64,000 nt of DNA from Arthrobacter zhangbolii (GTDB taxonomy: Bacteria; Actinomycetota; Actinomycetes; Actinomycetales; Micrococcaceae): the NCBI RefSeq assembly GCF_022869865.1, contig NZ_CP094984.1:2728001-2792000 (forward strand), read 5' to 3'. Shown one piece after another: positions 9,698 to 35,650 of the stretch (its first letter is position 1; every line of letters starts with the position of its first letter). A program made the position numbers and the translations under genes. The notes below the pieces were generated by a model that searched no databases, was not told where the DNA came from, and saw only the letters and a program-made list of their open reading frames with translations.

Positions 9698-12600
9698 TCA
9701 GTAGCCCCGCTCCTCCCCTGCCCCGGTCAGCGGAGCCCGGGATCCCTCCGCCGGGCCTGCCTGGGCGTTCTCCGGGCCGGGCTCCCCCTCGCCGCGACTG
9801 TCCTTCCGCTCCGGCTCATCGGAGCGCACCCGTGTGAGCCGCCAGACGGCCAGCGCGATCAGGCCGATACCCAGAAGTGCCAGCCACAGGAAGGTGTAGC
9901 CCCGCAGGTACCACAGCACCGCCAGCACAACGCCGGCTGCGCCCCAGAGCGTAAAGAGTCTCCTGCTGGCAAGCAGGCCGAAAGCCAGCAGCCCGGCGTG
10001 GGCCACCAGTGCCCACAACTGTTTGCCCGCACCGCCGCTGATGATGGTGGAGAGCCCGCTCAGCGAGAGGATTGCCGCCGCGGCCGCCAGGACAATGGTG
10101 CCCCGGTTTTCTCGTTTCCGGAGGTACTCGTAGGCGGCCAGGCCGGCCAGGACGCATGCCCAGTACTGCAGGGACCAGAAGCCGTTGACGTCTCCGAGGA
10201 GAAGCCATGCAATGCGCTGGACCGCCAGCGCCGTGAGGAGCGCCGCTGCCTGTACCGCCGGTTCCCGGAACCTTGCCGGCACCTCGATCAGCCCAACGCC
10301 CAGCGCCGCGGCCAGGGTCAGGGAACCGGCCGCCGCCGAAGCATCGGGTGCCATGGCCGGGACCGCTGCCAAGGTCAGGATGAGGGAGGCACCGGCGCCG
10401 ATGATGTGTCTCCGCAGGACACCGTCCCGGTGCTTCGCTCCCGCTTCCGCAGCGTGCCCCGGGATCAGCAACCGGATTGCCAGCAGCACCGCTGCGGCAG
10501 CCCACGCAGGGACCAGCGCGGCATACCCCGTCTCCAGCAGCCCGCCCAGCGCCGAGCCTGCCGTGGACCAGCTCAGGAAAAGCATGCCTGCCGCCACCAG
10601 GGGTGGCAGCCCGACCGCCAGCCAGGGACGCTGTCTGGAGAAGGACAATGCCAGAAAGAGGGCACCGGCAAAGCCGAAGACTGCCGCTGCCAGCAGGGCG
10701 CTGCCCGATGCTGCCGCCAGAAACAGGGCCGCCGCCGTATACGCTGCCGAGATTGAGAGCAGTGCCGTGCGCAGGGGTATCTCCAGGGTGTGCCGGAACT
10801 CGCCCCATAGCCCGGCAGCGGCCAGTGCCAGCAGGGTTGCTCCGGCTGCCACCGGGCTGAGGACCGGTTCCGGGAGCAGCCCTGCTTTGTCAAAGTCCGG
10901 CAGGCGGGTCAGCACTACGGGCAGTGTGCCGAGTGCCAGGCCGGCGATATAGATGACCCACTGCGAGCGCGGCTGACGGTCTGCATTCCACCGGATAAAG
11001 GCAACTGTGGCACTGAGCAGCAGCAGGATCAGTTGGACGGTCACGACGTCCCGTCTGACGCCGGGTCCTGCGTTAATTGCATATCCCAGAGGCGCCAGCA
11101 GCAGGAGGCACAGGCTGACCCACCCCGAGACTTCGGCGTATCCCAGATTGCCGAAATGCCGGTCCAGAAGCGTCCGGATGATGTGCTGGGCAGCGAGGAC
11201 GGCGGTTCCGGCAACGAATGTCCCATGCCGTCCCGCACCAAGGTCCACAGCCACGAGAACAGACAGGAGCACCACGAGTGCCTGGATACCCAGAAGATAC
11301 AGGCCACGCGTGGTGAGCTCCCGGTTCAGTGCCAGCGAGGCACAGTAGACGAGGGCTGCCAGCGCCAGCACCTCATAGCCGTGTATCCCGAAGACTCCAC
11401 CGCCGAGCATCGCTGCCGCGGTGAACCCCGCCGGTGCTGCCACCTCGTACGAGGCGAATCGCAGCAGTACCAGCGAAATGGCGATGTTCGCTGCCAGCCC
11501 TCCCCAGATCAATGCCAGGCTCCACACCACCGGCGCATCAATGCCTCGGGACGCAGCGGCGGCAATCACAACAATCAGTCCGGCCGACAGCATCAGTGCA
11601 GCCGCGAACGGCAGGGCTGTACCCCGCCGCACCCGCATCGCGGTGGACAACTGGATCAGGACAGCCACCGCAGCGGCGGTGGTCAGGAGGAACATAGGGG
11701 TTCCGTCCTGTCGCCCGGAACCCATCAGGACCACATAGGCCAGCGCTACGGTTCCGGCGGCACACAGGCTTCCCCACTGGGCAGGACCGGCCAGGCCCAG
11801 CGGTTCCAATTGGCGGGCGAAAAGTACCCGCAGCACTTCGCAGACGGCGATGCCCACCGCAGCCGCGGCAAAGACACTGTGAATTTCCCCGGTCAGGTCT
11901 GCCGTCACCAGGGCGGCAAGAACAATCAGGAGAACCTGCGCCGCCAGCAGATAGGCACCACGGAACGGGTTGGTGCGTCCGAGGACAAAATAGACGCAGT
12001 AGATCAGTGCGGCGGAAACCAGTACCTGATAGCCGCGCACCCCCAACAGCCCTGCCCCTGTGGCAGCGGTAGCCACAAAACCGGCAGGAGCCAGCAGAAC
12101 CGGCCAGGAATGCCGCAGCAGCAGTGCAGTGAGAATATTCAGGGCCAAGGCTCCTGCGAGGACAGCAAGGGCGACGGTCCCGTCAGTCGCGTCCACGGTG
12201 CGGACGCTTACGCTGAGCAGCAGCGCCAGCGCCGAAGCGGCGGTGGTGGCTGCGAGCGCGGCGTGGCCGGCTCCCCGGTCCGGACCGGCAGCCGCAGCGC
12301 GGGGGCGTACGGCGGGGGCAGGTGTGGTGAAGGGGCCGGCCGCGGGGACGACGGGACCGGAAACGGGGACGACGGGACCGGAAACGGGGACGACGGCTGC
12401 CGCCCCGGTGTCCGGGCTGACCCGGGACCGACCTGCCGCTGTGAAGGCGGCTACGCCCTGCGTGATCAGTGCAGAAGTGACGGCAATGACGAGCAGTGCC
12501 AGTCCGGTTCCGGGCCGGGCCGCCGTATCGGTCAGGATGTAATAGGCCGGTGCCGTCATTGACAGCGCCGTCAGCGTTGCCCACATAAAGGTCCGGGCCA

Positions 12601-15298
12601 GTCCCAAGGGCCGCAGGCGTCTATGCAGGACGATCCTGGCGAGATGCTGGACGGCGAGTGATGCCGCCAACGCCGTGAAGATGCCGTGCACATCCATGCC
12701 CAGGTCCGCTGCCGCCAGCCCCGTCAGGACGGTTATCAAAACCTGTCCCACGGCTATGTAGAAGGTACGGTGTCCGCGCGGCCCAAACTTCCGGACCATG
12801 AGCACGCAGTACACCAGTGCCGCCGCAACCAGAAGCTCGTAGCCGCGCACGCCCAACAGCCCGGCACCCATCAGGGCAGCGGCCATGAAGCCCAGCGGGC
12901 CGGCCGTCAGGAACCGGCTGCGGGCAAGACGAAGCGTGGTCAGGATATTGACGGCAACCAGTACCCAGAGCGCAGCCACGGCATGGGTTGGCTCCAACCG
13001 CGGTTCGAAGCACAGCACCAGGACACCAGCGGCGGTTCCCGTTGCCGAAGCGAGGATCACCCACCCCGGGACGTACTCCGGTTTCCCTGCGGATACCCGG
13101 ATAACTGACGCCGTCTGATTGGCGGCCATGGCCACTACGGCGGTTAACAGCGCCCAGGACCAGCCGTCCGCTCCCCCCGCGCCCGACACCGACGCCAGCA
13201 CGGTCAACGGGAGCAGCAGAACACCAGCGGCCCTGGCTCCAAGCACAAACTGCATGCGTGTTGCTTCTCCCCTGGCACGCACCATCAGGTACGCAGTAAG
13301 CGCCGCCGTGACCAGGACGGATGGCCACAATGGTTCCTTCGCCAGCAAAGCATGAGGGACAAAAGACAGGCCCAGCGGAACAATGGCGGCGAATTCCAGC
13401 AGCCCGCCCACTGTCCTTGCCGCTGCAAGATAGGTGCCCAGGACCACCAGGATGGTGGCCGAGAAGATCATTGTGCTTCCCGATGATTCCGATGTGCCAA
13501 GGGCCTGGAACAGCCCGGCGGCAAGACCCGTGGCAGCCTGCATCACCAGCAGGGCGGCCACGTCTGTGCGGAAGAACCTGCGCGCCCGGATTTCCGGCTC
13601 CACGGCCGGTTTCTTCGCAAGGCTGACCCCGCCCGCGGCGGGAGCCGGGTCCGGCGTTCCGCGGCGCGGCACTGCTCCGCCGGCAGCCTGCCCGCCCGAA
13701 GGTACGCCCGTTGTTCCTGCGCCGCGCCGACCAGCTGCTGCTTCTGCGTCCAATCCCTCGTCCAGGGGCAGTCCTGCAGTCCGTGAGGCGATCTGCAGCA
13801 GAGCCGCTGCTCCATACACCGGTTTCCGCAGCAGGATGCCGGACAGCTGCGCTGCGATCTGTATGGCGAACGCCAGCAGCGTCGCCTGCGTACTGCCGGT
13901 GAAGGAGTAGCAGAGGGCGGTGAGGCCCACGGTTCCAGCGGCGCGCAGGCCGTAGCTGTTGGCCAGCTGGTTCCTCGCCGGGCCCTGCCACATCATGACT
14001 GCGTAGTGGAGAGCGAAGGCCAGGAACAGGATGGACAGCTGCCCCGCCGTCAGGTCCCCGGATATCTGGACCGCGGCAATGGCCGCGGCAGGAACCAGGT
14101 ACCGGTGCGACCTCACGAAGGCGTCGAGATACAGATTGTTCAGCCACTTCGGCCGCCGGATCGCGGCAAGGCTGATCAGGGTTGCGAGCACTACGGTAAA
14201 CAGGAAATACCAGATGATCCCCGACCGGAGGACAGCGCCCGAGGCCAGTCCGGATGACAGCAGGAACGTCAGTGCCAGGTAGGTAACTACCCGGCTGTCA
14301 ATCCTCGCGGCGGCAAAGGCAAACGCCACGGTGCCCGCCAGCGACGTGATAAGCCATGCGGCCGGACCGTCCTGCAGGACCACTGTGTGCAATGCCAGCC
14401 CGACAACCGGTATCAGCGCCAGTCCCGTACCGGTGAAGGCCACGGCAGCCGGACGAAGGCGGCGGCTGCGGGCATGCACAACAAGCCCGGATACATAGAA
14501 CAGTGCGGTGACCCCCACAACGCCGAGGAAGCGTGCCCCGGCCGGGATGGCCAACCCAATAAACAGGGCCGCGGCCGCAACGAGCAGCAGACTCGCGGAG
14601 TACAGCGTGATGTTGATGTTCCGCAGGTCCCTCCGCCGTTTCTCGGCCTGCAGCTGTGCCTCGGTTTTGACCGGAGGAGCCGGCCTGGCGGGCCTGGGCG
14701 GCACGGGAGTTGAGGGAGTCGCGGGCGGGAGACCACGGCGTCCGCCTGTTCCTATTGAGTGTACCGGAGCACCCGTGCTGCCCGGGGCCGGAACATAAGG
14801 GGATTGTGGTGCTGAGGACACCGGGGTGGAGGCCGTACCGCTCTGCCCGGCCGGGGTAACGGGAGAGGCAGCCGGGACGGAGGGCGGGGGTACCGGCCGT
14901 GACGGCGCGGGTGCCGAGGGGGATGCCCATACCGGGGGAACCGGCTGTCCGGGCTGCCCTGCGCGGCGGTCGGCATGCCCCGGACCCGCGGGCGGGCCGG
15001 CAATCCCCTGCCCGGCCTGTACCGCGTCCCGGGGAGCGGCCGGCCCGGCTGCTGCAGGACCCGTCACTGGATTTCCTGTCGCCGGCTGTCCCTGCCCGGC
15101 CGCCACCCCGGCGCCTGCCTGCCCGTAACGCGCTGCGGCGGCGGCCAGCCCCGCACGGTAGCCCTCGTCATAGATCTGCGCCGGCGGCGGCACCCGGCGG
15201 CCCAGCAGGTCCGTGCCCCGGCCCGCCTTCACACCGACGACCCGTCCCACGAAGAAACTGGCTGTTATGGCAGCCAGGAATAGCAGGAAGACCCCCAT
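9698..15298 (-). CDS. giant polytopic membrane protein with three internal repeats (1866 residues)
   Basis: Not recognised by function. Residues 1-25 form one membrane helix (MGVFLLFLAAITASFFVGRV). Residues about 60-215 are a Pro/Ala/Gly/Ser-rich linker ending in a Lys/Arg-rich coil (QLQAEKRRRDLRNINI). From about 230 to 1810 there are several dozen hydrophobic segments broken by short loops and two disordered inserts (about 505-575 and 958-1012). A module of about 135 residues occurs three times, near 770-905, 1045-1180 and 1263-1397. Each copy contains a GLLGVRGYELLVAAALVYC-like core and ends with an LxPLGLA-like turn. The tail after about 1820 is acidic and Gly/Glu-rich. ATG start with GGAAGGA 12 bases upstream. 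The whole frame keeps the codon bias of its neighbours, so it is a real gene. It could be a scaffold or a lipid- or polymer-handling protein; no catalytic motif was seen. Confidence 0.85.
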   Translation of the reverse strand: MGVFLLFLAAITASFFVGRVVGVKAGRGTDLLGRRVPPPAQIYDEGYRAGLAAAAARYGQAGAGVAAGQGQPATGNPVTGPAAAGPAAPRDAVQAGQGIAGPPAGPGHADRRAGQPGQPVPPVWASPSAPAPSRPVPPPSVPAASPVTPAGQSGTASTPVSSAPQSPYVPAPGSTGAPVHSIGTGGRRGLPPATPSTPVPPRPARPAPPVKTEAQLQAEKRRRDLRNINITLYSASLLLVAAAALFIGLAIPAGARFLGVVGVTALFYVSGLVVHARSRRLRPAAVAFTGTGLALIPVVGLALHTVVLQDGPAAWLITSLAGTVAFAFAAARIDSRVVTYLALTFLLSSGLASGAVLRSGIIWYFLFTVVLATLISLAAIRRPKWLNNLYLDAFVRSHRYLVPAAAIAAVQISGDLTAGQLSILFLAFALHYAVMMWQGPARNQLANSYGLRAAGTVGLTALCYSFTGSTQATLLAFAIQIAAQLSGILLRKPVYGAAALLQIASRTAGLPLDEGLDAEAAAGRRGAGTTGVPSGGQAAGGAVPRRGTPDPAPAAGGVSLAKKPAVEPEIRARRFFRTDVAALLVMQAATGLAAGLFQALGTSESSGSTMIFSATILVVLGTYLAAARTVGGLLEFAAIVPLGLSFVPHALLAKEPLWPSVLVTAALTAYLMVRARGEATRMQFVLGARAAGVLLLPLTVLASVSGAGGADGWSWALLTAVVAMAANQTASVIRVSAGKPEYVPGWVILASATGTAAGVLVLCFEPRLEPTHAVAALWVLVAVNILTTLRLARSRFLTAGPLGFMAAALMGAGLLGVRGYELLVAAALVYCVLMVRKFGPRGHRTFYIAVGQVLITVLTGLAAADLGMDVHGIFTALAASLAVQHLARIVLHRRLRPLGLARTFMWATLTALSMTAPAYYILTDTAARPGTGLALLVIAVTSALITQGVAAFTAAGRSRVSPDTGAAAVVPVSGPVVPVSGPVVPAAGPFTTPAPAVRPRAAAAGPDRGAGHAALAATTAASALALLLSVSVRTVDATDGTVALAVLAGALALNILTALLLRHSWPVLLAPAGFVATAATGAGLLGVRGYQVLVSAALIYCVYFVLGRTNPFRGAYLLAAQVLLIVLAALVTADLTGEIHSVFAAAAVGIAVCEVLRVLFARQLEPLGLAGPAQWGSLCAAGTVALAYVVLMGSGRQDGTPMFLLTTAAAVAVLIQLSTAMRVRRGTALPFAAALMLSAGLIVVIAAAASRGIDAPVVWSLALIWGGLAANIAISLVLLRFASYEVAAPAGFTAAAMLGGGVFGIHGYEVLALAALVYCASLALNRELTTRGLYLLGIQALVVLLSVLVAVDLGAGRHGTFVAGTAVLAAQHIIRTLLDRHFGNLGYAEVSGWVSLCLLLLAPLGYAINAGPGVRRDVVTVQLILLLLSATVAFIRWNADRQPRSQWVIYIAGLALGTLPVVLTRLPDFDKAGLLPEPVLSPVAAGATLLALAAAGLWGEFRHTLEIPLRTALLSISAAYTAAALFLAAASGSALLAAAVFGFAGALFLALSFSRQRPWLAVGLPPLVAAGMLFLSWSTAGSALGGLLETGYAALVPAWAAAAVLLAIRLLIPGHAAEAGAKHRDGVLRRHIIGAGASLILTLAAVPAMAPDASAAAGSLTLAAALGVGLIEVPARFREPAVQAAALLTALAVQRIAWLLLGDVNGFWSLQYWACVLAGLAAYEYLRKRENRGTIVLAAAAAILSLSGLSTIISGGAGKQLWALVAHAGLLAFGLLASRRLFTLWGAAGVVLAVLWYLRGYTFLWLALLGIGLIALAVWRLTRVRSDEPERKDSRGEGEPGPENAQAGPAEGSRAPLTGAGEERGY
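12344..12400. repeat. 21-bp tandem repeat inside the giant membrane protein gene
   Basis: A 21-base unit is present in two exact copies (12344-12364, 12365-12385) plus a partial third. It encodes VVPVSGP repeated in the disordered insert near residues 969-990 of the membrane protein. In frame, so length variation between strains would be tolerated. Confidence 0.8.
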
Positions 15299-15578: not shown

Positions 15579-18500
15579 ATGTACCTTTCGGTCCTCGGAA
15601 CCCACAGCGGCATGGACACCGGCAGCATCACCGGGACGGTGCAGGTTCCCAACTCCAAATACCACGCCCACCGAGCATTGATCCTGGCGTCCCTGGCACC
15701 GGGCACCAGCCGGATTTCCGGCCTCACCGACGCACGCCACGTGCAATACACCGTGGCCATGCTCCGCCGGCTGGGCACCGGGATCGATGTGCAGGACGAT
15801 ACCTTCGTCGTCCACGGCGGCCCCTACCAGCCGCGCAGTGCCGCCGTGTCCGCGGGCAGTTCCGGCACCACTCTTTACTTCATGGCCGGACTTGCGTCGC
15901 TGGCCTCCCGCGACGTCGTCGTGACCGGCCAGAAGTACTTCCAGCGCCGTCCCGTCGGCGCCCTGCTGGCCGCGCTGCGCCAAATGGGGGTGGACATCTG
16001 GGCACCCAATGACTGCCCGCCGCTGCACGTCACGGCCGGCCGGCCGCACGGCGGAGAAGTGCATATCCCCGGCACCCTGTCGCAGTGGATATCCGGGCTT
16101 CTGCTGCTGGCGCCTTTTGCCCGCAGCCACACCACGGTGGTAGTTGACGGCGAGCAGAATGAGAGCAGCTACATAGAACTGACGGTAGCCATGATGCAGC
16201 GTTTCGGCCTGCAGGTGGACGTCTCCGAAGACTTTCGCCGTTTCCGGATAGCCCCGGACCAGCAGGCTGTCCCCACAGATCTGCGGATGCCGCCGGATAT
16301 CGGATCCGCTGCCTTCGGTATCGCTGCGGCGGCCCTTCACCCGGCGGATGTGACGCTTGAGGGACTCCCCGCCGTCTCTTCTGCCGGATCGGACCACCCC
16401 GAAGCGGACTTCCTGGACCTGGCAGCGGAGATGGGGGTGCCCATGGTGGCCGACGCGACAGCCGGCTCCGTCAGCATCCGCCACAGCGGACTGCAGTTGG
16501 CGCCCATCGACGTCGACTGCCGGCGGGTGCCTGACATGCTCCCGGTCCTCTCCGTGATGGCATGCCTGGCCCGGGGCCGCAGCACGTTCCGGAACATTGA
16601 CCACGTGCGGATGAAGGAATCGGACCGGGTCGCTGCCATGCTGCAGTTGAATTCGATGGGGGCCAACCTTACCGTGGAGGGCTCCACGCTGATGATCCAC
16701 GGCGTCTCCGGGCTCAACGGGGCGGATCTCTCCTCGTTCAACGATCACCGGGTCCTGATGTCCCTGGCGCTGGCTGCCACCGCTGCCGAGGGCCGCAGCA
16801 CCCTGAGCTACCCCCACGCCTACCGCATCTCCTACCCCGAGTATCTTGCCGCCATGACCACGTTCGGGCTGCGGATGCAGGTGGAGGAGGGGGTTATCCG
16901 TCGGCCCCGCATCACCCGCCCCGTCCGCACTGCCAGGGGCAGCCGGCCGCGCACCATCACCGGTCAGGCCGGGGTGGAAGCCGCCGCGTCGGTCACTGGG
17001 CCCGAATGGGTCCGGCGGTGGTCCGCAGAACGGCCCAATGAAAGCGCAGTGATCGACGGCGGCGCCGGCACCGCCGGCCATCTGACCTGGGCGGAACTGG
17101 ACGCCCGGGCTGACAGGGTTGCAGCAGCCCTGCTGGACCTGGGGATCCGGCCGGGCGACCGCGTGGCCTTCCAGCTCCCCAACCGCAGCGAATTTGTCAT
17201 CCTCGCTGTCGCTGCCCTGCGCATCGGCGCCGTCGCTGCCCCCATTATGCCGATTTTCCGCGAACGCGAGGTGGCGCTGGCCCTGCACCGCGCCCGTGCC
17301 CGGCTGTTCGTGACGGTAGAGGAGTTCCGCGGCCGCCGCCCCGCCGAAGAACTCGCCGGGCTGCTGCAGCGCGCGGGCGGGACCGACCCGGGAACGGCAG
17401 CCAGCGTTGAACGGGTCCTGGTAGTGCGGGATACACCCTCCCGGCGGCCCCTTCCCCGGGTGCCCGGCGGCCCGGAGTTCGCTGACTGGACGGACACTCT
17501 GGAACGTGCACGGCCGGACCACCGGGTGCTGGCGCAATATGCACCGGCGGCCAGGGACGCCGCGCAGCTTCTGTTCACCTCCGGCACGTCCGGCGAGCCT
17601 AAGGGTGTTGTGCACCGCCATTCCACGCTCAGCCGGGCCGCCGCCATGGAAGTGACCCATCTGGGCCTGACCAGTGATGATGCCGTCTTCATCCCCTCCC
17701 CCCTAGCCCACCAGACCGGCTTCCTGTACGGCATGTGGCTTTCCTTTGTCCTGGGCTGCCCGCAGGTCCTGCAACCCGTCTGGGATGCAGAGCGCGCCCT
17801 GGCGCTGATGAGCGGCTGGCGGGCCACGTTTGTCCAGGCTGCCACCCCGTTCCTCTCGGATCTGGTCCGGGCGGTGGATACGGGTGCGCCGGCACCCTCC
17901 AGTCTGCGGATCTTCGTGAACACGGGCGCTGCCGTTCCCCGGCATCTGGCTGAGCGTGCCACCCGCGTCCTCGGTGCCCGGATTTGCGGCGCCTTCGGCA
18001 CCACGGAAACCTGCCTTGGCACCCTGGCTTCCCCGCGGGACGAACCGGTGAAGGTGTGGGGCACCGACGGACGCGCACTGGCGGGGGTGCAGACACGGAT
18101 TGTCGACGACGACGGGAGGCTCCTTCCTGACGGGGTCGAAGGCAACTTCGAGCTGGACAGCCCGACTGTCTTCGAGGGCTACCTTGACCGCCCCGACCTG
18201 ACCAAGGAAGTCTTTACCGAAGACGGCTGGTACCGCACCGGCGACACCGGCGTCATCGATGCGGACGGATTTCTGCGCATCACCGGCAGGGTCCGGGACA
18301 TCATCAACCGCGGAGGGGAGAAAATCCCGGTGGCTGAGATTGAGCAGTTGCTGTACCGGCATCCCGCCGTAGCTGACGTGGCACTCGCGGCCATGCCGGA
18401 TGACCGGCTGGGTGAGCGGGCCTGCGCCTTTGTGGTTCCCGCGCCGGGAAACCTGCCCCGGCTGACAGACCTCACCGCGTTCCTGGACGGACACCAGGTG

Positions 18501-18662
18501 TCCAAGCACTATTGGCCCGAGCACCTTCACCTGCTGGAAGATATTCCGCGCAACGCGGTGGGCAAGGTGCAGAAGTTTCTGCTGCGTGAAATGGCACGCA
18601 GTTTCACCGACGGTGACAGTGTTTCTTCCGCTTTACCCTCCCCGGATCGGAGCAGCTTGTGA
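15579..18662 (+). CDS. EPSP-synthase-like / acyl-CoA ligase fusion (AnsJK/PlmJK type)
   Basis: 1027-residue two-domain protein. Residues about 12-432 have the EPSP synthase fold: VPNSKYHAHRAL (24-34), GQKYFQRRP (117-125), SQWISGLLLL (168-177), VPDMLPVLSV (317-326), RMKESDR (344-350) and FNDHR (387-391). The usual GTAMRP loop is replaced by GSSGTTLYF (93-101) and the C-terminal catalytic lysine is not seen, so it is probably not a true AroA. Residues about 473-1005 are an AMP-forming CoA ligase: phosphate loop LLFTSGTSGEPKG (664-676), GAFGTTE (804-810), GDTG (888-891), GRVRDIINRGGEK (903-915) and lysine K996 in GKVQK. From memory this architecture belongs to shikimate-to-cyclohexanecarboxyl-CoA clusters of Streptomyces; shikimate or a derivative would be activated to a CoA ester. 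The ATG follows GAAAGG. The stop overlaps the next gene by four bases. Confidence 0.85.
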   Translation: MYLSVLGTHSGMDTGSITGTVQVPNSKYHAHRALILASLAPGTSRISGLTDARHVQYTVAMLRRLGTGIDVQDDTFVVHGGPYQPRSAAVSAGSSGTTLYFMAGLASLASRDVVVTGQKYFQRRPVGALLAALRQMGVDIWAPNDCPPLHVTAGRPHGGEVHIPGTLSQWISGLLLLAPFARSHTTVVVDGEQNESSYIELTVAMMQRFGLQVDVSEDFRRFRIAPDQQAVPTDLRMPPDIGSAAFGIAAAALHPADVTLEGLPAVSSAGSDHPEADFLDLAAEMGVPMVADATAGSVSIRHSGLQLAPIDVDCRRVPDMLPVLSVMACLARGRSTFRNIDHVRMKESDRVAAMLQLNSMGANLTVEGSTLMIHGVSGLNGADLSSFNDHRVLMSLALAATAAEGRSTLSYPHAYRISYPEYLAAMTTFGLRMQVEEGVIRRPRITRPVRTARGSRPRTITGQAGVEAAASVTGPEWVRRWSAERPNESAVIDGGAGTAGHLTWAELDARADRVAAALLDLGIRPGDRVAFQLPNRSEFVILAVAALRIGAVAAPIMPIFREREVALALHRARARLFVTVEEFRGRRPAEELAGLLQRAGGTDPGTAASVERVLVVRDTPSRRPLPRVPGGPEFADWTDTLERARPDHRVLAQYAPAARDAAQLLFTSGTSGEPKGVVHRHSTLSRAAAMEVTHLGLTSDDAVFIPSPLAHQTGFLYGMWLSFVLGCPQVLQPVWDAERALALMSGWRATFVQAATPFLSDLVRAVDTGAPAPSSLRIFVNTGAAVPRHLAERATRVLGARICGAFGTTETCLGTLASPRDEPVKVWGTDGRALAGVQTRIVDDDGRLLPDGVEGNFELDSPTVFEGYLDRPDLTKEVFTEDGWYRTGDTGVIDADGFLRITGRVRDIINRGGEKIPVAEIEQLLYRHPAVADVALAAMPDDRLGERACAFVVPAPGNLPRLTDLTAFLDGHQVSKHYWPEHLHLLEDIPRNAVGKVQKFLLREMARSFTDGDSVSSALPSPDRSSL

Positions 18663-19909
18663 GCGTCACCGGCATCACCGCAGACGGCAGGGGCAGCAGC
18701 GTTTCCGACACCCGGTACCGTGAGCTGCTTTCAGCCGTCACGTCCTGGGTGGAGGGGCCCGGCGAGGAGTGGGCCGGACGCATTGAGGCCACCGGGCAGG
18801 TTCCTGACTCGCTGTGGAAGGAGCTGCGCGAGGCAGGTTTCCTCTCCCTCGCAGCGCCCGTGGGACTGGGCGGACAAGGGCTGAGCTTTGTGCAGTGGAT
18901 GGGGCTGATGGAGGTTTTCTCCCGTTCCCACGCCTCCGTGCGCATGATCGTGCACGTGGTCAACGGCACCTGGCGTGCCATGAACCCGCACGCGGATGAA
19001 CAGCAGCGGGAAAAGTTTGTCCGGCCCTCTGTTGCGGGCGAGCTGATCGTTGCCTTCACACTGACGGAACCGGGCAACGGCACCGGCGCCGACATCACCT
19101 CCAGCGTCCGGCGGGACGGGGACACCTACTACCTGACCGGACGCAAACACCTGATTACCTTCGGCGTACGCTGCGACTACTGGCTGTTGTTCGCCCGGAT
19201 TGAGGGCAGCTCCGGCAGCGACGGCACGGTGGCGCTGCTGGTGGACAGGCATGCCCCCGGTGTGGTTGTTGAGAACACCTCCGAGACGCTCGGGGTGCAC
19301 GGAACGGACCATGCCTCATTGACCTTCACGGACACACCTGTTCCGGTGTCGCACCGGCTGGGCGCCGAAGGGGACGGGCTGGCGGTCGCGTTGGGCGGCT
19401 TCCTGACCCCGAGCCGGATTTCGGTGGCCATGAGCTGCGTTGGCCTGGCCGGGCGGGCGCAGCAACTGGCCGTGGCGTACGCCTTGGAGCGCACCACGTT
19501 CGGCAAGCCGCTGGCTTCGCGGCAGGCCATCGCCTTTTCGCTGGCCGAGAATGAAGCCGATATTGCTGCGGCCCGCGCTCTGACTCTGCAGGCAGCGGAA
19601 GACTGGCAGAAGGGCTCGGGCGCCGCCCCGGCGCTCTCTTCCATGGCCAAGCTGACCGCAGTGGACATGCTCACCCGTGTCACCGACAAGGCGTTGCAGG
19701 TCCACGGCGGCATTGGCTACTGGAAAAGCATGCCCATTGAACGGGTGTACCGGGACGCGCGTGCCCAGCGCTTCGAAGAGGGCACCAACGAGATCCAAAA
19801 GACGGTCATAGCCCGCGATCTTTTCCGCCGGGCGTCGGCTGGTGCAGCTGAAGCTGCCGCCGCAGCGGATGTCCCGGACCCGGCAGCGGCACCGGAATCA
19901 CTCGGCTGA
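18659..19909 (+). CDS. acyl-CoA dehydrogenase (AnsL/PlmL-like)
   Basis: 416 residues, flavin-dependent acyl-CoA dehydrogenase family. The N-terminal helical domain is followed by the flavin/substrate beta domain with AFTLTEPGNGTGAD (132-145) and TGRKHLITFG. The C-terminal four-helix domain contains QVHGGIGYWKSMPIERVYRD and the catalytic glutamate E374 in FEEGTNEIQ. GTG start overlapping the upstream stop by four bases (GTGA), so translation is coupled to the ligase fusion. The last 25 residues are a low-complexity Ala/Pro tail. In the proposed pathway it would remove or add hydrogens on the ring of a cyclohexene/diene-carboxyl-CoA intermediate; the precise step is inference. Confidence 0.85.
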   Translation: MSVTGITADGRGSSVSDTRYRELLSAVTSWVEGPGEEWAGRIEATGQVPDSLWKELREAGFLSLAAPVGLGGQGLSFVQWMGLMEVFSRSHASVRMIVHVVNGTWRAMNPHADEQQREKFVRPSVAGELIVAFTLTEPGNGTGADITSSVRRDGDTYYLTGRKHLITFGVRCDYWLLFARIEGSSGSDGTVALLVDRHAPGVVVENTSETLGVHGTDHASLTFTDTPVPVSHRLGAEGDGLAVALGGFLTPSRISVAMSCVGLAGRAQQLAVAYALERTTFGKPLASRQAIAFSLAENEADIAAARALTLQAAEDWQKGSGAAPALSSMAKLTAVDMLTRVTDKALQVHGGIGYWKSMPIERVYRDARAQRFEEGTNEIQKTVIARDLFRRASAGAAEAAAAADVPDPAAAPESLG

Positions 19910-19926
19910 CGGTCAGGCGCCCACCG

Positions 19927-21915
19927 ATGCCGGACAGGGTCTTCACACCCGTTTCCCTGGGCCCGCTGCGGCTGGCCCACCGGATCATGATGGGCTCCAT
20001 GCACCTGAACCGGGAGGACGATCCGCAGGCGCTGGCCGCCTTCTACCGGGAACGGGCTGCCGGAGGCGCAGCGCTGATAGTCACCGGCGGGGCGGCGGTC
20101 AGCCGTACCGGGGCAGGCGGCCCTAACTACCTGCTGATAAACGAACCGGAAGCCGCTGCCGTCCTCTCCCCCACTTTGGAGGCCGTGCACGGTGCCGGCG
20201 GGAAGATCGCCCTCCAGCTCTTCCACGCAGGCCGGTACGCCTTCGAGTCCAGCTACGGACTCCGCCCTGCCGCCCCGTCGGAGGTCTACTCAGGCTTCTC
20301 CCGCGCCGTGCCGGCCGCCATGACCCAGCAGCAGATTGAGGCCGTTCTCGCCGACTTCGCTGCGGGAGCTGCCCAAGCGCAGTCGCTGGGCTTCGACGCC
20401 GTGGAAATCATGGGCTCGGAGGGTTACCTGATCAATCAGTTCGCCTCACCGCTCACCAACCTTCGCACGGACGGGTGGGGCGGTGACCCGCAGCGTCGGC
20501 AGTCGTTCCCGTTGGCGGTTCTTGCAGCGGTACGCGGCGCCGTCGGTCCCGCATATCCGGTCATTTACCGCACGTCCGGAGCTGATTTCGTGGCCGGGTC
20601 CAGCACTCTGGAGGAATCCCGTGCCCTCGCGGTTGCCCTGGCAGCGGCCGGCGCGGACGCCCTGAACATCGGGATCGGCTGGCACGAGTCACGCGTGCCC
20701 TCCGTCCAGGCGCTTGTCCCGCACGGGCACTGGATGGGTATTGCCGGCAGCATCCGTGCCGCCCTTGCCGGGGCCGGCGTGCAGGTACCGGTGATCGGCA
20801 GCAACCGGATCAACTCGCTGCATCTGGCCGAACAGGCCCTGTCCGCCGGCCAGGCCGATGTGGTCTCCATGGCCCGTCCCTTCCTCGCGGATCCGGAGAT
20901 TGTGGCCAAGACCCGGCGTGGGCAGGCGGAGCTGGTGAACACCTGCATCGCTTGTAACGAGGCCTGCATAGACCGCTCGCTCGGCACGGAAGCGGTCTCC
21001 TGCCTGGTAAATCCGCGGGCCGGCCGTGAGCTCGCGTTCCCGCTGGTCCGTTCCGTTTCCGCACCCGACCTGCGCGTCGCCGTCGTAGGCGCAGGACCGG
21101 CGGGCCTGCAGGCGGCAGCCACGCTGGCGCAGGCCGGGGTGCCCGTGGACCTTTATGAGGAGAGCGACGGAATCGGCGGCCAGTTCCGTCTGGCCGGAAC
21201 CGTGCCGGGAAAGGAAGATTTCCTGCAAACCATCAGGTACTTCCGCAACGAGCTTCCGCGGTTGGGCGTCCGGATCCGGCCCTGCGAATCCCCCGGGGCG
21301 GAGGCGTTATCCGGTTATGCCCACGTAATCCTTGCTACGGGTGTCCGTCCCCGGCCGGTGCCGTTGCCCCGCACCGGCCGGCTGCCCGTCCGGGACTACC
21401 GCGAGGCATTTGCCGCGCCCGCAGACCTGGGCCGCCGAGTGGTGGTCATCGGAGCCGGAGGAATAGCCGTGGACCTGGCCCGCCTGCTCACGGGGACCCC
21501 TGGAGGGCCGGCCGACGTGACCCTCCTCCGGCGCGGACACCGGATCGGAGAGGGAATCGGACCGTCCACGCGCTGGGCCGTACTGCAGGAGCTCGCCGCT
21601 GCCGGGGTGCGCACCCTTCCCGGAACAACGCCCCTGGAAGTCACTCCTGAGGGACTGCTCGTGGCCACCGCGCAAGAAACCGTGCTGCTGCCGGCGGACA
21701 CCGTGCTGCTGGCAGCCGGGCAGGTGCCGCACAATCCCCTCCACTCCGCCCTGCTGCACCAACGGATTCCCTGCACCGTCATTGGCGGAGCACTGGACGC
21801 CTCCGGCCTGAACGCCGTGCGCGCCTTTGATCAGGGACTGGAAACGGGCTCACTGCTGGCCAGGGAGCTGCAGCAGCCTTCCGGGGTTAAACGCAGCAGG
21901 ACCCCGCTGCCGTAG
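19927..21915 (+). CDS. 2,4-dienoyl-CoA reductase-like FMN/FAD/4Fe-4S oxidoreductase (AnsM/PlmM-like)
   Basis: 662 residues, same build as FadH 2,4-dienoyl-CoA reductase. The N-terminal FMN TIM barrel (about 1-330) has GSEGY, with Tyr167 at the place of the catalytic FadH tyrosine, and GIGWHESR, with His253 at the place of its catalytic histidine. A 4Fe-4S site C340-x2-C343-x3-C347-x11-C359 follows. Next come an FAD motif VVGAGPAGLQAAATL (about 386-400) and an NAD(P)H motif VVVIGAGGIAVDLA (about 503-516). It starts 17 bases after the dehydrogenase stop. All key residues are kept, so an active NADPH-dependent enoyl/dienoyl-CoA reductase is likely. Its place here suggests ring double-bond reduction during cyclohexanecarboxyl-CoA formation. 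Confidence 0.85.
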   Translation: MPDRVFTPVSLGPLRLAHRIMMGSMHLNREDDPQALAAFYRERAAGGAALIVTGGAAVSRTGAGGPNYLLINEPEAAAVLSPTLEAVHGAGGKIALQLFHAGRYAFESSYGLRPAAPSEVYSGFSRAVPAAMTQQQIEAVLADFAAGAAQAQSLGFDAVEIMGSEGYLINQFASPLTNLRTDGWGGDPQRRQSFPLAVLAAVRGAVGPAYPVIYRTSGADFVAGSSTLEESRALAVALAAAGADALNIGIGWHESRVPSVQALVPHGHWMGIAGSIRAALAGAGVQVPVIGSNRINSLHLAEQALSAGQADVVSMARPFLADPEIVAKTRRGQAELVNTCIACNEACIDRSLGTEAVSCLVNPRAGRELAFPLVRSVSAPDLRVAVVGAGPAGLQAAATLAQAGVPVDLYEESDGIGGQFRLAGTVPGKEDFLQTIRYFRNELPRLGVRIRPCESPGAEALSGYAHVILATGVRPRPVPLPRTGRLPVRDYREAFAAPADLGRRVVVIGAGGIAVDLARLLTGTPGGPADVTLLRRGHRIGEGIGPSTRWAVLQELAAAGVRTLPGTTPLEVTPEGLLVATAQETVLLPADTVLLAAGQVPHNPLHSALLHQRIPCTVIGGALDASGLNAVRAFDQGLETGSLLARELQQPSGVKRSRTPLP

Positions 21916-21947
21916 CAACGGGGTCCTGCTAAGAACCGAAGAGGTTC
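21895..21947. terminator. inverted repeats between the convergent operon and tuf
   Basis: A perfect 12-bp stem (AGCAGGACCCCG / CGGGGTCCTGCT, 12-base loop) spans the 3' end of the dienoyl-reductase gene and the space after it. A second hairpin GAACC-GAAGA-GGTTC lies at 21933-21947, nearer to tuf. Read on the minus strand the large stem is followed by GCGTTTAACC, the same tail as after the rpoC terminator. Most likely terminates tuf; may also act on the plus-strand operon. Confidence 0.65.
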
Positions 21948-26793: not shown

Positions 26794-27585
26794 CTAACTG
26801 CGGGCCGCCAGGGCATCAGTGATGGTGGCCGATGCCTGCTGCAGATGCGGCAGCACGCGGGCCGCGGCATCTTCCAGTGTAGGCCCGCCCAGCCCCATCG
26901 TTGCCTGCATGGAGGTATTCAGGGCTGCGCAGACCCTGCCCTGGGGGTCGTACACGGGGACGGCGACAGAGCGCAGGCCCTGTTCGAGTTCCTGGTCCAC
27001 CACTGCCCAGCCCTGTTCCCGGACGCCGGCAACCAGTTCGCGGAGCCGGGCAGGGTCGGTGACGGTGCGGTCGGTGAGCGGTTGCAGGTCCACTGTGGTG
27101 AGGTAATCCTCGAACCGGTCTTCGGGCAGCCCGGCGAGCAGGACCCGCCCCATGGACGTTGCGTAGGCCGGGAAGCGCGTGCCCACGGCAATGCCCACGG
27201 TCATCAGCCGGCGGGTATGGATGCGGGCTATATAGACAATCTCGCTGCCGTCGAGCACGGATGCGGACGTGGACTCGGAGATCTGCCGGGACAGGTCCTC
27301 CAGTACGGGCTGGGCCAGCTGGGGCAGCGACTGGCCCGACAGATAGGAATATCCCAGCTGCAGCACCAAAGCGGTGAGCTCGAAGGTCCGTCCGTCCGTG
27401 CGGATGTAGCCCAGTTCCACCAGGGTGAGCAGGAAGCGCCGGGCCGTGGCCCGGGTCAGGCCGGTGCGCCGGGAGACCTCGCTGAGCGTCATCTGCACGT
27501 GGTCGGCGTCGAACGCGCGAATCACTAGCAGGCCCCGGGCCAGCGACTGTACATACTGGTCGCTGGCCGGCACGGTCTCGCTCAT
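26794..27585 (-). CDS. pcaR: IclR-family regulator of the pca operon
   Basis: 263 residues, IclR family in the PcaR/PcaU/PobR subgroup. N-terminal winged helix about residues 10-70 (LSEVSRRTGLTRATARRFLL is the recognition region), then the IclR effector domain (about 85-255). It lies 24 bases after pcaJ on the same strand, so it is the last gene of the pca operon and would be co-expressed with it. Its likely target is the GTTCG-type palindrome in front of pcaH. Effector (protocatechuate or beta-ketoadipate) cannot be told from sequence. Confidence 0.8.
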   Translation of the reverse strand: MSETVPASDQYVQSLARGLLVIRAFDADHVQMTLSEVSRRTGLTRATARRFLLTLVELGYIRTDGRTFELTALVLQLGYSYLSGQSLPQLAQPVLEDLSRQISESTSASVLDGSEIVYIARIHTRRLMTVGIAVGTRFPAYATSMGRVLLAGLPEDRFEDYLTTVDLQPLTDRTVTDPARLRELVAGVREQGWAVVDQELEQGLRSVAVPVYDPQGRVCAALNTSMQATMGLGGPTLEDAAARVLPHLQQASATITDALAARS

Positions 27586-27609
27586 CTGTCCCCCATGATT
27601 GGTGTCCTG

Positions 27610-28266
27610 CTAGCTTCCGTCCGCGGCGCGGATCAGCGGGATATCCATCTTCGCCGCCAGCTCTTCGAAGGTGGTGCCAAAGGTCTCGCGTACGTGTACG
27701 CCGTCCTCCTTCAGCAAAAAGACTGCTTCATTAGTGTAGACGCGGGTCACGCAACCCACCCCGGTCAGCGGATAGCTGCACTCCTTGACCAGCTTGCTCA
27801 CGCCGTCGCGCGTGAACAGGGACATCATGACGTAGACGTCCTTGGCTCCGGTGGCCAGGTCCATGGCACCGCCGACTGCAGGGATGGCATCCGGTGCCCC
27901 GGTATGCCAATTGGCGAGGTCACCGGCAGCCGAGACCTGGAAGGCGCCCAGTACGCAGACGTCCAGGTGTCCGCCCCGCATGATGGCGAAGGAGTCGGCA
28001 TGGTGGAAGTAGGCTGCGCCCGGCAGCTCCGTTACCGGAATTTTTCCGGCGTTGATCAGGTCCGGATCCACCTCGTCGCCGTGTGCTTCCGGCCCCATGC
28101 CCAGCATGCCGTTCTCGGTGTGCAGGGTGACTTTCTGCTCGGGCACCAGATAGTTCGAGACCAGGGTGGGCTGCCCGATGCCCAGGTTCACGAAGGACCC
28201 GGGGGCAATGTCGGAGGCGACCAGGGCCGCGAGTTCGTTCTTGTCCAGCTTCTTGTCGGTGCTCAT
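27610..28266 (-). CDS. pcaJ: 3-oxoadipate CoA-transferase subunit B
   Basis: 218 residues, beta subunit of the succinyl-CoA:3-oxoadipate CoA-transferase. Contains GSFVNLGIGQPTLVSNYL and the catalytic glutamate in HTENGMLGMGP (about residues 51-61), plus the DVYVMMSLFTRDG region. Its ATG overlaps the pcaI stop by four bases, so the two subunits are made in step. Converts beta-ketoadipate to its CoA ester. Confidence 0.93.
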   Translation of the reverse strand: MSTDKKLDKNELAALVASDIAPGSFVNLGIGQPTLVSNYLVPEQKVTLHTENGMLGMGPEAHGDEVDPDLINAGKIPVTELPGAAYFHHADSFAIMRGGHLDVCVLGAFQVSAAGDLANWHTGAPDAIPAVGGAMDLATGAKDVYVMMSLFTRDGVSKLVKECSYPLTGVGCVTRVYTNEAVFLLKEDGVHVRETFGTTFEELAAKMDIPLIRAADGS

Positions 28267-28946
28267 GCTGCGGCCGGTGCTTTCTCCCGGTCCACGCGGA
28301 CCAGGCTGTTGACGTAGATCCCGGGAGTAACAACGTTTTCGGGGTCCAGTTCCCCAACGTCCACAATTTCGCGTACCTGCACGATGGCATGCCCGGCGGC
28401 GGCAGCCATGATGGGTCCGAAGTTCCGGGCCGTCTTGCGGTAGACCAGGTTGCCGGCTGTGTCAGCCCGCAGCGCCTTCACCAGGGCAAAGTCCGCGTGC
28501 AGTGGTGTTTCGAAGACGTAGCCGCGGCCATCTATGACCCGGGTTTCCTTGCCTTCGGCCAGCGGGGTTCCGTACGCGGTGGGAGTGAAGAAGCCGCCAA
28601 TGCCGGCGCCGGCTGCCCGGATGCGTTCGGCCAGGTTGCCCTGGGGCACCAGTTCCAGTTCGATCTCCCCCGCACGGTACTTCGCGTCGAAGATCTGCGA
28701 GTCGGACTGCCGCGGGAAGGAGCAGATGATTTTCTTCACGCGGCCGGCACCGATCAGGGCTGCCAGGCCCTGTTCCCCGTTGCCTGCGTTGTTGTTGACC
28801 ACGGTCAGGTCCGTGGCGCCCTGCCGCAGCAGCGCCTCGATCAGTTCCACGGGCTGGCCGGCGCGGCCGAATCCGCCAATCATTACGGTGGCCCCGTCAT
28901 GGATGGGCGCTACGGCCTCATCTGCGTCCTGCACTATGTTGAGCAC
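28263..28946 (-). CDS. pcaI: 3-oxoadipate CoA-transferase subunit A
   Basis: 227 residues, alpha subunit, partner of PcaJ. GTG start chosen (MLNIVQDADEAVAPIHDG) behind TTAGGAAAAA; the open frame extends upstream into sequence without similarity. The CoA-transferase motif GATVMIGGFGRAGQPVELIE is near residues 19-38 and GIGGFFTPTAYGTPLAEGKE is in the middle. It lies 31 bases after pcaF. Confidence 0.93.
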   Translation of the reverse strand: MLNIVQDADEAVAPIHDGATVMIGGFGRAGQPVELIEALLRQGATDLTVVNNNAGNGEQGLAALIGAGRVKKIICSFPRQSDSQIFDAKYRAGEIELELVPQGNLAERIRAAGAGIGGFFTPTAYGTPLAEGKETRVIDGRGYVFETPLHADFALVKALRADTAGNLVYRKTARNFGPIMAAAAGHAIVQVREIVDVGELDPENVVTPGIYVNSLVRVDREKAPAAA

Positions 28947-28977
28947 GGTTTTTCCTAACGTGTGCGGTGTCTGGGTA

Positions 28978-30177
28978 TCAGTTGGCGTTTTCGAGGACGA
29001 CGGCGAGGCCCTGCCCGACGCCGATGCAGATGGCTGCCACGCCCCAGCGCTCTCCGGAGTCCTGCAGGCGGCGGGCCAGCGTGCCCAGGATACGGGTACC
29101 GGAGGCACCCAGCGGGTGGCCGATTGCCACGGCCCCGCCCCACGCGTTGACGATGGCCGGGTCCACGTCCCAGGCGTCCAGGCAGGCCAGCGACTGGGCG
29201 GCGAAGGCTTCGTTCAGTTCCACTGCTCCAACCTCGCTCCAGCTGATGCCGGCACGCTTCAGGGCAAGGTTGGCCGCTTCCACGGGGGCATAGCCGAAGA
29301 ACTGCGGCTCATTGGCGGCGGCGCCGCGTCCGGCAATCCGTGCCAGCGGAGCCATGCCCAGGATGCCGGCGGCGTTCTCGCTGCCGAGCCAGGCTGCCGA
29401 AGCGCCGTCGTTCAGCGGTGAGGCGTTGCCTGCGGTCACGGTGCCGCCGGAGGCATCGTCGGAGGCGGGCCGGAAGACGGTGCGAAGGGTGGCCAGCTTT
29501 TCCACGGTGGAGCCTGCGCGGATGCTTTCGTCACGGTCCAGCTCCACGCCGTCCACGGCAACGGTGAGATCCGCATATTTACCCTCGTCCCAGGCCTTGG
29601 CAGCCAGGGCGTGGGAGGCAGCGGCGAACTCGTCCTGGCGCTCACGGCTGATACCGTGCTTCTCGCGCAGCTGCTCGGTGGCTTCACCGAGGGAGACGGT
29701 CCATTCCTTCGGCATGGCCGGATTGACCAGGCGCCAGCCCAGGGTGGTGGAGGCCAGGGTCTGGTCCCCTGCCGGGTAGGGCTTCTCATTTTTCGGCAGT
29801 ACCCAGGGGGCGCGGCTCATTGACTCGGCGCCGCCGATCAGCATCAGGTCGGCTTCGCCGGTGTTGATCTGGCGGGAGGCGATGAGTGCCGCGTCCAGGG
29901 AGGACCCGCAGAGCCGGTTCACCGTGGTGCCCGGAATCGAGGTGGGCAGACCGGCCAGCAGGGTGGCCATCCTGGCCACGTTGCGGTTTTCCTCGCCGGC
30001 TCCGTTGGCGTTGCCGAAAATCACCTCGTCGATGCGTGCCGGGTCCAGGCCGGGCGCGCGTGAGACGGACGCCTTGATGACCTGGGCGGCGAGGTCATCC
30101 GGGCGGACCCCGGCGAGGGCTCCGCCGAACTTCCCGAAGGGCGTACGGACTGCGTCGTAGATATAGGCCTGGTTCAC
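28978..30177 (-). CDS. pcaF: beta-ketoadipyl-CoA thiolase
   Basis: 399 residues, thiolase that splits beta-ketoadipyl-CoA into succinyl-CoA and acetyl-CoA. GTG start behind AAGGAG. Nucleophilic cysteine in TVNRLCGSSLDAAL (about residue 90), catalytic histidine in GGAVAIGHPLGASGTR, and second cysteine in AAICIGVGQG near the C-terminus. Operon position between pcaC and pcaI supports PcaF over a general acetyl-CoA acetyltransferase. Confidence 0.93.
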   Translation of the reverse strand: MNQAYIYDAVRTPFGKFGGALAGVRPDDLAAQVIKASVSRAPGLDPARIDEVIFGNANGAGEENRNVARMATLLAGLPTSIPGTTVNRLCGSSLDAALIASRQINTGEADLMLIGGAESMSRAPWVLPKNEKPYPAGDQTLASTTLGWRLVNPAMPKEWTVSLGEATEQLREKHGISRERQDEFAAASHALAAKAWDEGKYADLTVAVDGVELDRDESIRAGSTVEKLATLRTVFRPASDDASGGTVTAGNASPLNDGASAAWLGSENAAGILGMAPLARIAGRGAAANEPQFFGYAPVEAANLALKRAGISWSEVGAVELNEAFAAQSLACLDAWDVDPAIVNAWGGAVAIGHPLGASGTRILGTLARRLQDSGERWGVAAICIGVGQGLAVVLENAN

Positions 30178-30234
30178 CGGTGCTCCTTGAAACTCAAAAA
30201 GAAAAGTCGAATGGCTGGGAAGGTTCGGGGGCCG

Positions 30235-30639
30235 CTAGGCCGCGGAGTCAATCTCGCGGAAGACGCCCTGCGCCACCTTGAAGGCGGAGTTCGCGGCGGG
30301 AACCCCGCAGTAGATGGCAGACTGCAGGACAATTTCCTTGATCTCGTCCCGGCTCAGGCCGTTGCGCAGCGCCGCCCGCACATGCATGGCGAATTCCTCC
30401 ATGTGCCCGTGCGCAATCAGCGCCGTGAGCGTCACGGCGCTCCGCATGGTGCGGGGCAGGCCGGGGCGGGTCCAGATGGTTCCCCAGGCGTACTGGGTGA
30501 TCATGTCCTGGAAGTCGGTGGTGAACTCGTCCTTGCCGGCGTTGGCACGGTCCACATGCTCGGAGCCCAGGACCTCCCGGCGTACGGCCATACCCTCGTT
30601 GTACACGTCCTGCCGGCTCTTGTGTCCGTCTGCAATCAC
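30235..30639 (-). CDS. pcaC: 4-carboxymuconolactone decarboxylase
   Basis: 134 residues, CMD family. It decarboxylates gamma-carboxymuconolactone to beta-ketoadipate enol-lactone. GTG start four bases after the pcaD stop, preceded by GGAAGGGAAA. Conserved parts: YNEGMAVRREVLGSEHVDRA, WTRPGLPRTMRSAVTLTALI and EIKEIVLQSAIYCGVPAANS. Separate here, whereas it is fused to PcaD as PcaL in some Rhodococcus and Streptomyces. Confidence 0.93.
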   Translation of the reverse strand: MIADGHKSRQDVYNEGMAVRREVLGSEHVDRANAGKDEFTTDFQDMITQYAWGTIWTRPGLPRTMRSAVTLTALIAHGHMEEFAMHVRAALRNGLSRDEIKEIVLQSAIYCGVPAANSAFKVAQGVFREIDSAA

Positions 30640-30643
30640 GGTG

Positions 30644-32859: not shown

Positions 32860-32861
32860 GC

Positions 32862-34253: not shown

Positions 34254-34299
34254 GGTTTTTCCTTTCGACTTCGAGCGCATCCTTGCACTCCGGCTATCC

Positions 34300-34341
34300 A
34301 ACAAGCGTCCGCGTGGTCGAGACCACACTACACCGCTTGTT
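34300..34341. promoter_or_regulatory. nested inverted repeats over the pca promoter
   Basis: Outer arms AACAAGCG (34300-34307) and CGCTTGTT (34334-34341) are a perfect match. They enclose GTGGTC-GA-GACCAC (34313-34326), also perfect. The inner palindrome overlaps the predicted -10 and start of transcription, the position of a repressor site or a 5' UTR stem. Confidence 0.55.
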
Positions 34342-34354
34342 CATCTTGTGTACA
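34325..34354 (-). promoter_or_regulatory. candidate pcaH promoter
   Basis: Minus strand: TGTACA (34349-34354), 18-base spacer, TAGTGT (34325-34330). Transcription would start near 34318, about 65 bases before the pcaH ATG. The placement next to the GTTCG palindrome supports it. Confidence 0.45.
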
Positions 34355-34357
34355 GGT

Positions 34358-34372: not shown

Positions 34373-34376
34373 GAAA

Positions 34377-35573: not shown

Positions 35574-35650
35574 CTGGTACTCCCTTTGGAAAATCTGTTG
35601 CGGTTCCTGGTCTCCAGTGTGACTGCGCGCACAACGTGTTACCCAGAGGG

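Follow-up and report, generated by a model that had tools for sequence, protein, structure and literature searches.

A predicted two-locus pathway from shikimate to cyclohexanecarboxyl-CoA, probably for omega-cyclohexyl fatty acids, in Arthrobacter zhangbolii

The 64,000-nucleotide stretch of the Arthrobacter zhangbolii genome analysed here (the window; C1:2728001-2792000 of a single-contig 3.46-Mb genome) contains an operon that, with a probability of roughly 0.68, provides the early enzymes for converting shikimate to cyclohexanecarboxyl-CoA (CHC-CoA), a pathway that would be completed by a second operon elsewhere in the genome and would serve the synthesis of omega-cyclohexyl membrane fatty acids. 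The window operon consists of JK (15579-18662, plus strand, 1027 aa), a fusion of a domain resembling 5-enolpyruvylshikimate-3-phosphate synthase (EPSPS) with an AMP-forming acyl-CoA ligase; L (18659-19909, plus strand, 416 aa, GTG start), an acyl-CoA dehydrogenase; and M (19927-21915, plus strand, 662 aa), a dienoyl-CoA reductase of the FadH/old-yellow-enzyme family. The second operon encodes a short-chain dehydrogenase/reductase (SDR; C1:224862-225698), a CoA ligase (CoAL2; C1:225722-227410) and a FabF-type ketosynthase (KAS; C1:227370-228665). These three genes are consecutive; their distance to the window operon is 2.5 Mb when counted along the contig and, should the chromosome be circular, about 0.95 Mb the other way round. 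As judged from the gene content, CHC-CoA is the likely product, and omega-cyclohexyl fatty acids are its probable fate.

The original prediction, made from the letters of the window, had described three tightly coupled genes, and the three open reading frames indeed lie on the same strand, with a 4-bp overlap between JK and L and a 17-bp gap between L and M. An alternative in-frame ATG at 15474 would give a longer JK protein, but the start at 15579 was preferred because it matches the N-termini of relatives in an alignment of eight homologues. The enzyme classes proposed at that time were borne out by domain searches. JK matched the Pfam families EPSP_synthase (aa 15-424, 1.3e-81), AMP-binding (aa 479-869, 7.8e-73) and AMP-binding_C, with the ligase part spanning aa 479-996. 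L contained acyl-CoA dehydrogenase domains; its best NCBIfam model was acryloyl-CoA reductase (235.1 bits, below the cut-off of 640) and its third was cyclohexane-1-carbonyl-CoA dehydrogenase (184.6 bits, below the cut-off of 650), and it shared 65-66% identity with its positional counterpart in Streptomyces piniterrae and in an Acidothermus metagenome-assembled genome (MAG). M matched Oxidored_FMN and Pyr_redox_2, its top match in the PDB was the 2,4-dienoyl-CoA reductase 1ps9 (1.5e-134), and its translation contained a CIACNEAC...C cysteine motif together with GWHE and EGYLIN motifs. An EPSPS-like protein with an acyl-CoA ligase (fused or separate), an acyl-CoA dehydrogenase with a FadH-like reductase in one operon, and a ChcA-type SDR in the same organism are the components of a CHC-CoA gene set; JK supplies the first pair, L and M the second, and the gene at C1:224862-225698 presumably the third component.

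Within the genus, full-length JK was detected in 20 of 29 genomes (this genome counted; the congeners include A. koreensis, A. gandavensis, A. gallicola, A. pullicola and A. yangruifuii) and in 33 of 395 genomes of the family, with the genus counted. It was also found in 2 of 393 other genomes sampled from the class, namely S. piniterrae and the Acidothermus MAG, when the two best candidates per genome were scored, and plasmid records gave no match to JK at E 1e-100. In the genus, JK never occurred without L, M and tuf beside it (20 of 20 genomes). All six genes are under purifying selection: dN/dS against four congeners, calculated by the Nei-Gojobori method, was 0.13-0.21 for JK, 0.10-0.15 for L, 0.16-0.26 for M (synonymous differences being high for these three, at 0.51-0.62 per site), 0.10-0.14 for SDR, 0.11-0.24 for CoAL2 and 0.08-0.16 for KAS. 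The recurrence, the constant neighbors and the low dN/dS indicate that the three-gene set is not a chance arrangement.

In the named scan, 220 stretches encoded a relative, and the locus counts given here refer to the best 80 of these 220, with locus patterns defined by plus-strand matches above set bit scores. JK, L, SDR and M were contiguous and in that order in 55 of the 80 loci (Streptomyces, Curtobacterium, Sinomonas, and others): as JK-L-SDR-M in 36, JK-L-SDR-M-KAS in 8, JK-L-SDR-M-KAS-CoAL2 in 6 (L141, L142, L145-L147, and L149, all Streptomyces), and KAS-JK-L-SDR-M in 5. The other patterns were JK-L-M (10 loci, 8 of them Arthrobacter and 2 Cellulomonas), JK-L-SDR (7), JK alone (5), JK-L (2) and KAS-JK (1); 18 of the 80 loci were shorter than 18.5 kb, and some patterns are therefore cut by contig ends. 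The JK-L-M operon of A. zhangbolii thus corresponds to the backbone of the JK-L-SDR-M operons, which supports its original interpretation as a shikimate-to-CHC-CoA operon. Two strains, Streptomyces albus NRRL B-1811 (L150/L156) and S. xiaopingdaonensis (L151/L158), contained two JK genes each, one of which in both cases had no L, SDR or M in the fetched stretch.

The SDR gene followed L in all 13 family loci outside the genus, with M after SDR in 6 of these 13, and it was absent from all 20 operons of the genus, each of which adjoins tuf. It had been noted at the outset that the last enzyme, ChcA, was not in the window, and a search of the genome for a ChcA-like SDR was proposed; that search led to the orthologue of the operonic SDR at C1:224862-225698. 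When the genus was searched with the S. piniterrae SDR, a match of 62-67% identity was present in 21 of 29 genomes, whereas the other SDRs reported were 28-38% identical. The orthologue occurred in 20 of 20 JK-bearing genomes versus 1 of 9 JK-lacking genomes of the genus, the exception being G407, whose SDR sits on a long branch. In a tree of 97 of the 106 rows found (7 rows from genomes already included were dropped, as were L159, which is S. piniterrae, and L174, which is Acidothermus), the 21 second-locus SDRs made up a single clade (SH-aLRT 97) that fell within the operonic SDRs, with 9 other SDRs outside. A chance SDR mistaken for ChcA was ruled out by the tree, the identity gap and the co-occurrence; the operonic-type SDRs, given their position where ChcA is expected, are presumably ChcA. 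In the same tree, the SDRs of two members of the family, L093 and L094 (genomes G529 and G681), fell inside the Curtobacterium rows on a long branch, which may mean a transfer from Curtobacterium.

The association of the second operon with JK extends to the other two genes. The SDR-CoAL2-KAS trio was present in 10 of 10 congeners for which the region was fetched, including G407. Among 56 chosen genomes, CoAL2 (E 1e-130) occurred in 33 of 33 JK-bearing versus 2 of 23 JK-lacking genomes, and KAS (E 1e-100) in 28 of 33 versus 2 of 23; a check of all 23 JK-lacking genomes for JK gave only AroA-like matches near 30%. The best PDB matches of CoAL2 were 4-chlorobenzoate-CoA ligases. In the six-gene Streptomyces loci, KAS was 60-62% and CoAL2 61-63% identical; what is a single run there is divided between two loci in Arthrobacter and Cellulomonas. 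Two Cellulomonas genomes shared this split layout, with JK-L-M in one place and SDR (78%) and KAS (79%) elsewhere, about 1.7 kb apart. In C. cellasea, SDR and KAS were on a different contig from JK-L-M, and in C. timonensis they were apparently on the same contig, some 0.2 Mb off. The KAS of Cellulomonas loci L178 and L180 nested inside Arthrobacter in the FabF tree, which, together with the common layout, suggests transfer of both loci.

KAS is, by its sequence, a FabF paralogue. It scored 487.7 bits against TIGR03150 (cut-off 493.75) and passed the cut-off of the subfamily NF005589, while an ordinary fabD-fabH-acpP-fabF set was separately located at C1:2201711-2205413 (read from translations), its FabF being 42% identical to KAS. 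In a tree, 34 KAS rows (4 of them repeats, and 2, L242 and L243, with linkage to the other genes not checked) formed one clade (96) apart from 7 other FabFs. Beyond the six-gene runs, KAS followed M in seven further loci (L156, L157, L174, L179, L183, L203, and L206). Six of 10 Eremiobacterota loci and L200, from an unclassified bacterium, had a divergent FabF (33-37% identical to KAS) next to the operon; it lay upstream of JK in L161, L162, L164, L168, L197, and L200 (the loci with KAS-JK-L-SDR-M or KAS-JK) and after M in L192 (one of the eight JK-L-SDR-M-KAS loci). This divergent FabF formed its own clade on a long branch, but it joined the KAS clade when the tree was rooted on ordinary FabFs, which weakens the case for independent recruitment. 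Whatever the origin of this FabF, the operon has FabF-type companions in two phyla, a sign of chain elongation. Those members of Candidatus Eremiobacterota are MAGs that carry the operon or its start plus their own FabF-type neighbor.

These genes suggest the following route. The ligase domain of JK would activate the acid to its CoA thioester, and the EPSPS-like domain would cause unphosphorylated shikimate to lose a ring hydroxyl. L, M and SDR would then perform alternating reductions and dehydrations, with the ChcA-type SDR from the second operon catalyzing the last reduction to CHC-CoA. CoAL2 could activate or salvage the free acid, and KAS, being of FabF type, appears suited to elongate the cyclohexyl primer into omega-cyclohexyl membrane fatty acids.

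To compare the EPSPS-like domain with EPSPS itself, 114 JK rows (its own plus 113 loci of two overlapping collections; 97 distinct) were aligned with EPSPS chain u34929, which we take to be the E. coli enzyme. All 114 rows retained K22, R27, R124, S170, Q171, Y200, D313, K340, E341, R344, H385 and R386, and all 114 shared S23Y, R100Y, a gap at S169, S197E and N336H; the K411 position was I in 112 rows and T in 2, with an R one place earlier. S23, S169, S197 and N336 are presumably contacts of shikimate-3-phosphate, and the kept residues presumably include those of the phosphoenolpyruvate (PEP) side. Of the four residues that we assume to contact the phosphate of shikimate-3-phosphate (S169, S170, S197 and K340), S170 and K340 were retained, whereas S169 was missing and S197 was replaced by E in every row. 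The loss of phosphate contacts and the new acidic residue suggest that the JK domain acts on an unphosphorylated substrate, in agreement with the shikimate origin of the CHC group. It may further be speculated, although this is tentative and on balance doubtful, that JK is a phosphate-free parallel of the chorismate branch, in which the PEP-binding domain enolpyruvylates, or otherwise activates, shikimate or its CoA ester for 1,4-elimination; the result would be a widespread and largely polyketide synthase (PKS)-free way for mesophilic Actinobacteria and Eremiobacterota to make omega-cyclohexyl membrane lipids, in which SDR, ligase and FabF would form a separable module for salvage and elongation.

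The type of pathway is already known. The ansJKLM/chcA genes of ansatrienin producers and the plmJK-L-M genes of phoslactomycin producers are CHC-CoA gene sets with the same enzyme classes as those found here; the likeness is one of enzyme class. In contrast to those sets, Arthrobacter has no PKS in the window, and its SDR gene belongs to a second operon, alongside those for a CoA ligase and a FabF-type enzyme. Passages of published work describe a CHC-CoA cassette that gives doramectin in S. avermitilis without CHC feeding (PMC4581413, citing Cropp et al., 2000, which is also cited in PMC10295569 and PMC6693128), a supply of omega-cyclohexyl fatty acids from CHC-CoA in the asukamycin producer (PMC4147253), and omega-cyclohexyl fatty acids in Curtobacterium pusillum (PMC5023266, PMC3426160). 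According to further passages, omega-cyclohexyl acids have a membrane role in Alicyclobacillus (PMC10562698), and those of Sulfobacillus are of shikimate origin, with genes for omega-alicyclic acids stated as identified (PMC4378227). For the latter two genera the likeness is to the proposed end product only, and no locus of either was among the best 80 of 220.

Curtobacterium had been invoked as a parallel from the start, and this genus with reported omega-cyclohexyl fatty acids carries the operon, although C. pusillum itself was not among the best 80 loci. Six of the seven Curtobacterium loci among the 80 contained a free-standing JK-L-SDR-M, the seventh (L210) being on a 7.2-kb contig, and there was no ketosynthase (KS) or acyltransferase (AT) match nearby. 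In L208 and L209, JK-L-SDR-M lay between ffh-like and rpsP-like genes (read from translations). Curtobacterium differs from Arthrobacter in that the SDR gene is inside the operon and in that no close relative of KAS was found in the 6 genomes examined. No gene-level account for Arthrobacter or Curtobacterium was recognized in the literature searched. Within that literature, the free-standing set in Arthrobacter and its relatives, the two-locus split, the linked ligase and FabF, and the common changes in the EPSPS site appear to be new.

Other explanations share part of this evidence. CHC-CoA could be made but serve as the starter of a secondary metabolite (PKS, non-ribosomal peptide synthetase (NRPS) or amide) encoded elsewhere, much as a passage of PMC9730843 describes it as the polyketide starter in phoslactomycin. 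JK-L-SDR-M is next to modular PKS genes in S. piniterrae, S. kronopolitis and Actinoplanes sp. TFC3, modular PKS genes (KS and AT above 200 bits) being present in the fetched stretch of 3 of the 80 loci (L139, L155, and L159), with a lone KS match in L183. So low a count implies that a PKS-free state is usual within about 8 kb, and the six-gene Streptomyces loci gave no KS or AT match above 200 bits in the stretch fetched. The absence of a PKS from the window, as first proposed, was confirmed: the sole KS match, in the open reading frame 44709-46010, covered 99 residues at 37 bits, and there was no AT match. In C1:205001-255000, the sole KS match was KAS itself (below 100 bits), again with no AT match. 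A PKS cluster was thus ruled out for the window and for C1:205001-255000, the two regions searched. An accessory cluster would hardly be expected to keep its place next to tuf in 20 of 20 loci or to adjoin housekeeping genes, as it does in two Curtobacterium loci, and the ketosynthases linked to the operon are FabF-type, so that this alternative is considered unlikely. Slightly less likely still is that a different alicyclic acyl-CoA, with a cyclohexenyl or hydroxylated ring, is formed, the SDR having left the operon. None of the 20 loci of the genus and neither of the 2 Cellulomonas loci has the SDR gene in the operon, JK-lacking G407 has a long-branch SDR, and two MAGs with JK-L have no SDR match. 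However, none of the 20 JK-bearing genomes of the genus lacks the orthologue, both Cellulomonas genomes have it too, and the comparison with four congeners shows it to be under purifying selection.

A role in the catabolism of alicyclic or aromatic acids rather than in synthesis is regarded as very improbable. L and the JK ligase domain do match cyclohexanecarboxylate degradation models (TIGR03208, the cyclohexanecarboxylate-CoA ligase model matched by JK; NF043006; and TIGR03207), the second locus has an SDR and a CoA ligase whose best PDB matches are 4-chlorobenzoate-CoA ligases, and genes of protocatechuate type, read from translations, seem to be present in the same window. The scores, however, were far under the curated cut-offs (445 vs. 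792.3, 184.6 vs. 650, and 141.5 vs. 575.35 bits), on which ground a catabolic CHC operon was rejected, and to our knowledge no known degradation route uses a fused EPSPS domain or linked FabF genes. Most improbable of all is that JK is a second chorismate EPSP synthase whose ligase fusion is incidental. The JK domain exceeds the cut-off of the aroA model TIGR01356 (312.3 vs. 287.25 bits), and automatic annotation may therefore name it AroA, but the genome has a separate AroA-like gene at C1:2461749, 28% identical, and it is because of this gene and of the changes that all 114 rows share at presumed shikimate-3-phosphate contacts that a plain second AroA was rejected.

Several points nevertheless weigh against a CHC-CoA pathway for membrane lipids. 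No report of omega-cyclohexyl acids in Arthrobacter was found in the literature searched; kinship with the ans, plm and chc genes is presumed; and the product, the activities and the lipid fate are predicted here from genes alone. The SDR tree was a quick search in which 37 of 94 forks were weak and long branches were warned of among the outgroup SDRs. MAGs L187 and L191, which carry JK-L, gave no SDR match at E 1e-40 anywhere in the genome; both are Actinomycetes, and incomplete assembly or another route may account for this. M was missing from the fetched stretch of 7 of 13 family loci outside the genus and was not sought elsewhere there. A close relative of KAS was lacking in the 6 Curtobacterium genomes (best 42-44%), a genus with reported omega-cyclohexyl fatty acids, and in 5 of 33 JK-bearing family genomes, which makes KAS an accessory and not a requirement. 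Finally, G407 and G424 keep SDR, CoAL2 and KAS without JK, and the second operon may thus have another use; this state fits a salvage role or a decaying pathway. The trios for which no JK was found in the genome are at G407:C1:261468-265309 and G424:C6:117295-121356, and each is possibly a salvage module or a relic.

The operon was initially placed between tuf and the S10 operon, and this location was confirmed with one addition. Its right neighbor is tuf, convergent with M, and its left neighbor is the gene for an 1866-aa membrane protein, with S10-operon ribosomal protein genes beyond (read from translations). This gene (9698-15298) diverges from the operon. The protein is multi-spanning and has an N-terminal part rich in proline and alanine; of 19 congener loci, only 2 gave a match above 80 bits to the first 240 residues. 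A 16-bp inverted repeat (arms 21895-21910 and 21915-21930, 94% complementary, 4-nt loop) overlaps the M stop codon between the convergent M and tuf and is a terminator candidate; a T-tail scan did not report it, and the terminator-like sites of that scan were no more numerous than in shuffled sequences. A promoter scan found none. Farther downstream, 26794-36476 reads like a protocatechuate/4-hydroxybenzoate degradation cluster (regulators, thiolase, and dioxygenase- and hydroxylase-like open reading frames; translations only), placed between the rpsG-fusA-tuf genes and rpoC/rpoB.

The interest of CHC-CoA lies in its use as a starter unit, as in doramectin and phoslactomycin, while omega-cyclohexyl lipids serve as a marker for Alicyclobacillus; a chemistry more familiar from makers of antibiotics and from acidophilic thermophiles is here predicted for a soil bacterium with two loci. 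If the proposed pathway is correct, its gene set would, in the loci covered, lie mostly outside PKS clusters, and it would be conserved in many genomes of Arthrobacter, Sinomonas, Cellulomonas, and Curtobacterium; CoA ligase and FabF would be identified as likely parts of it. The altered substrate site, identical in every copy aligned, makes the puzzling EPSPS-like step testable. Ring-tipped lipids would then be predicted in mesophiles and, from the Eremiobacterota loci, omega-cyclohexyl lipids in an uncultured phylum.

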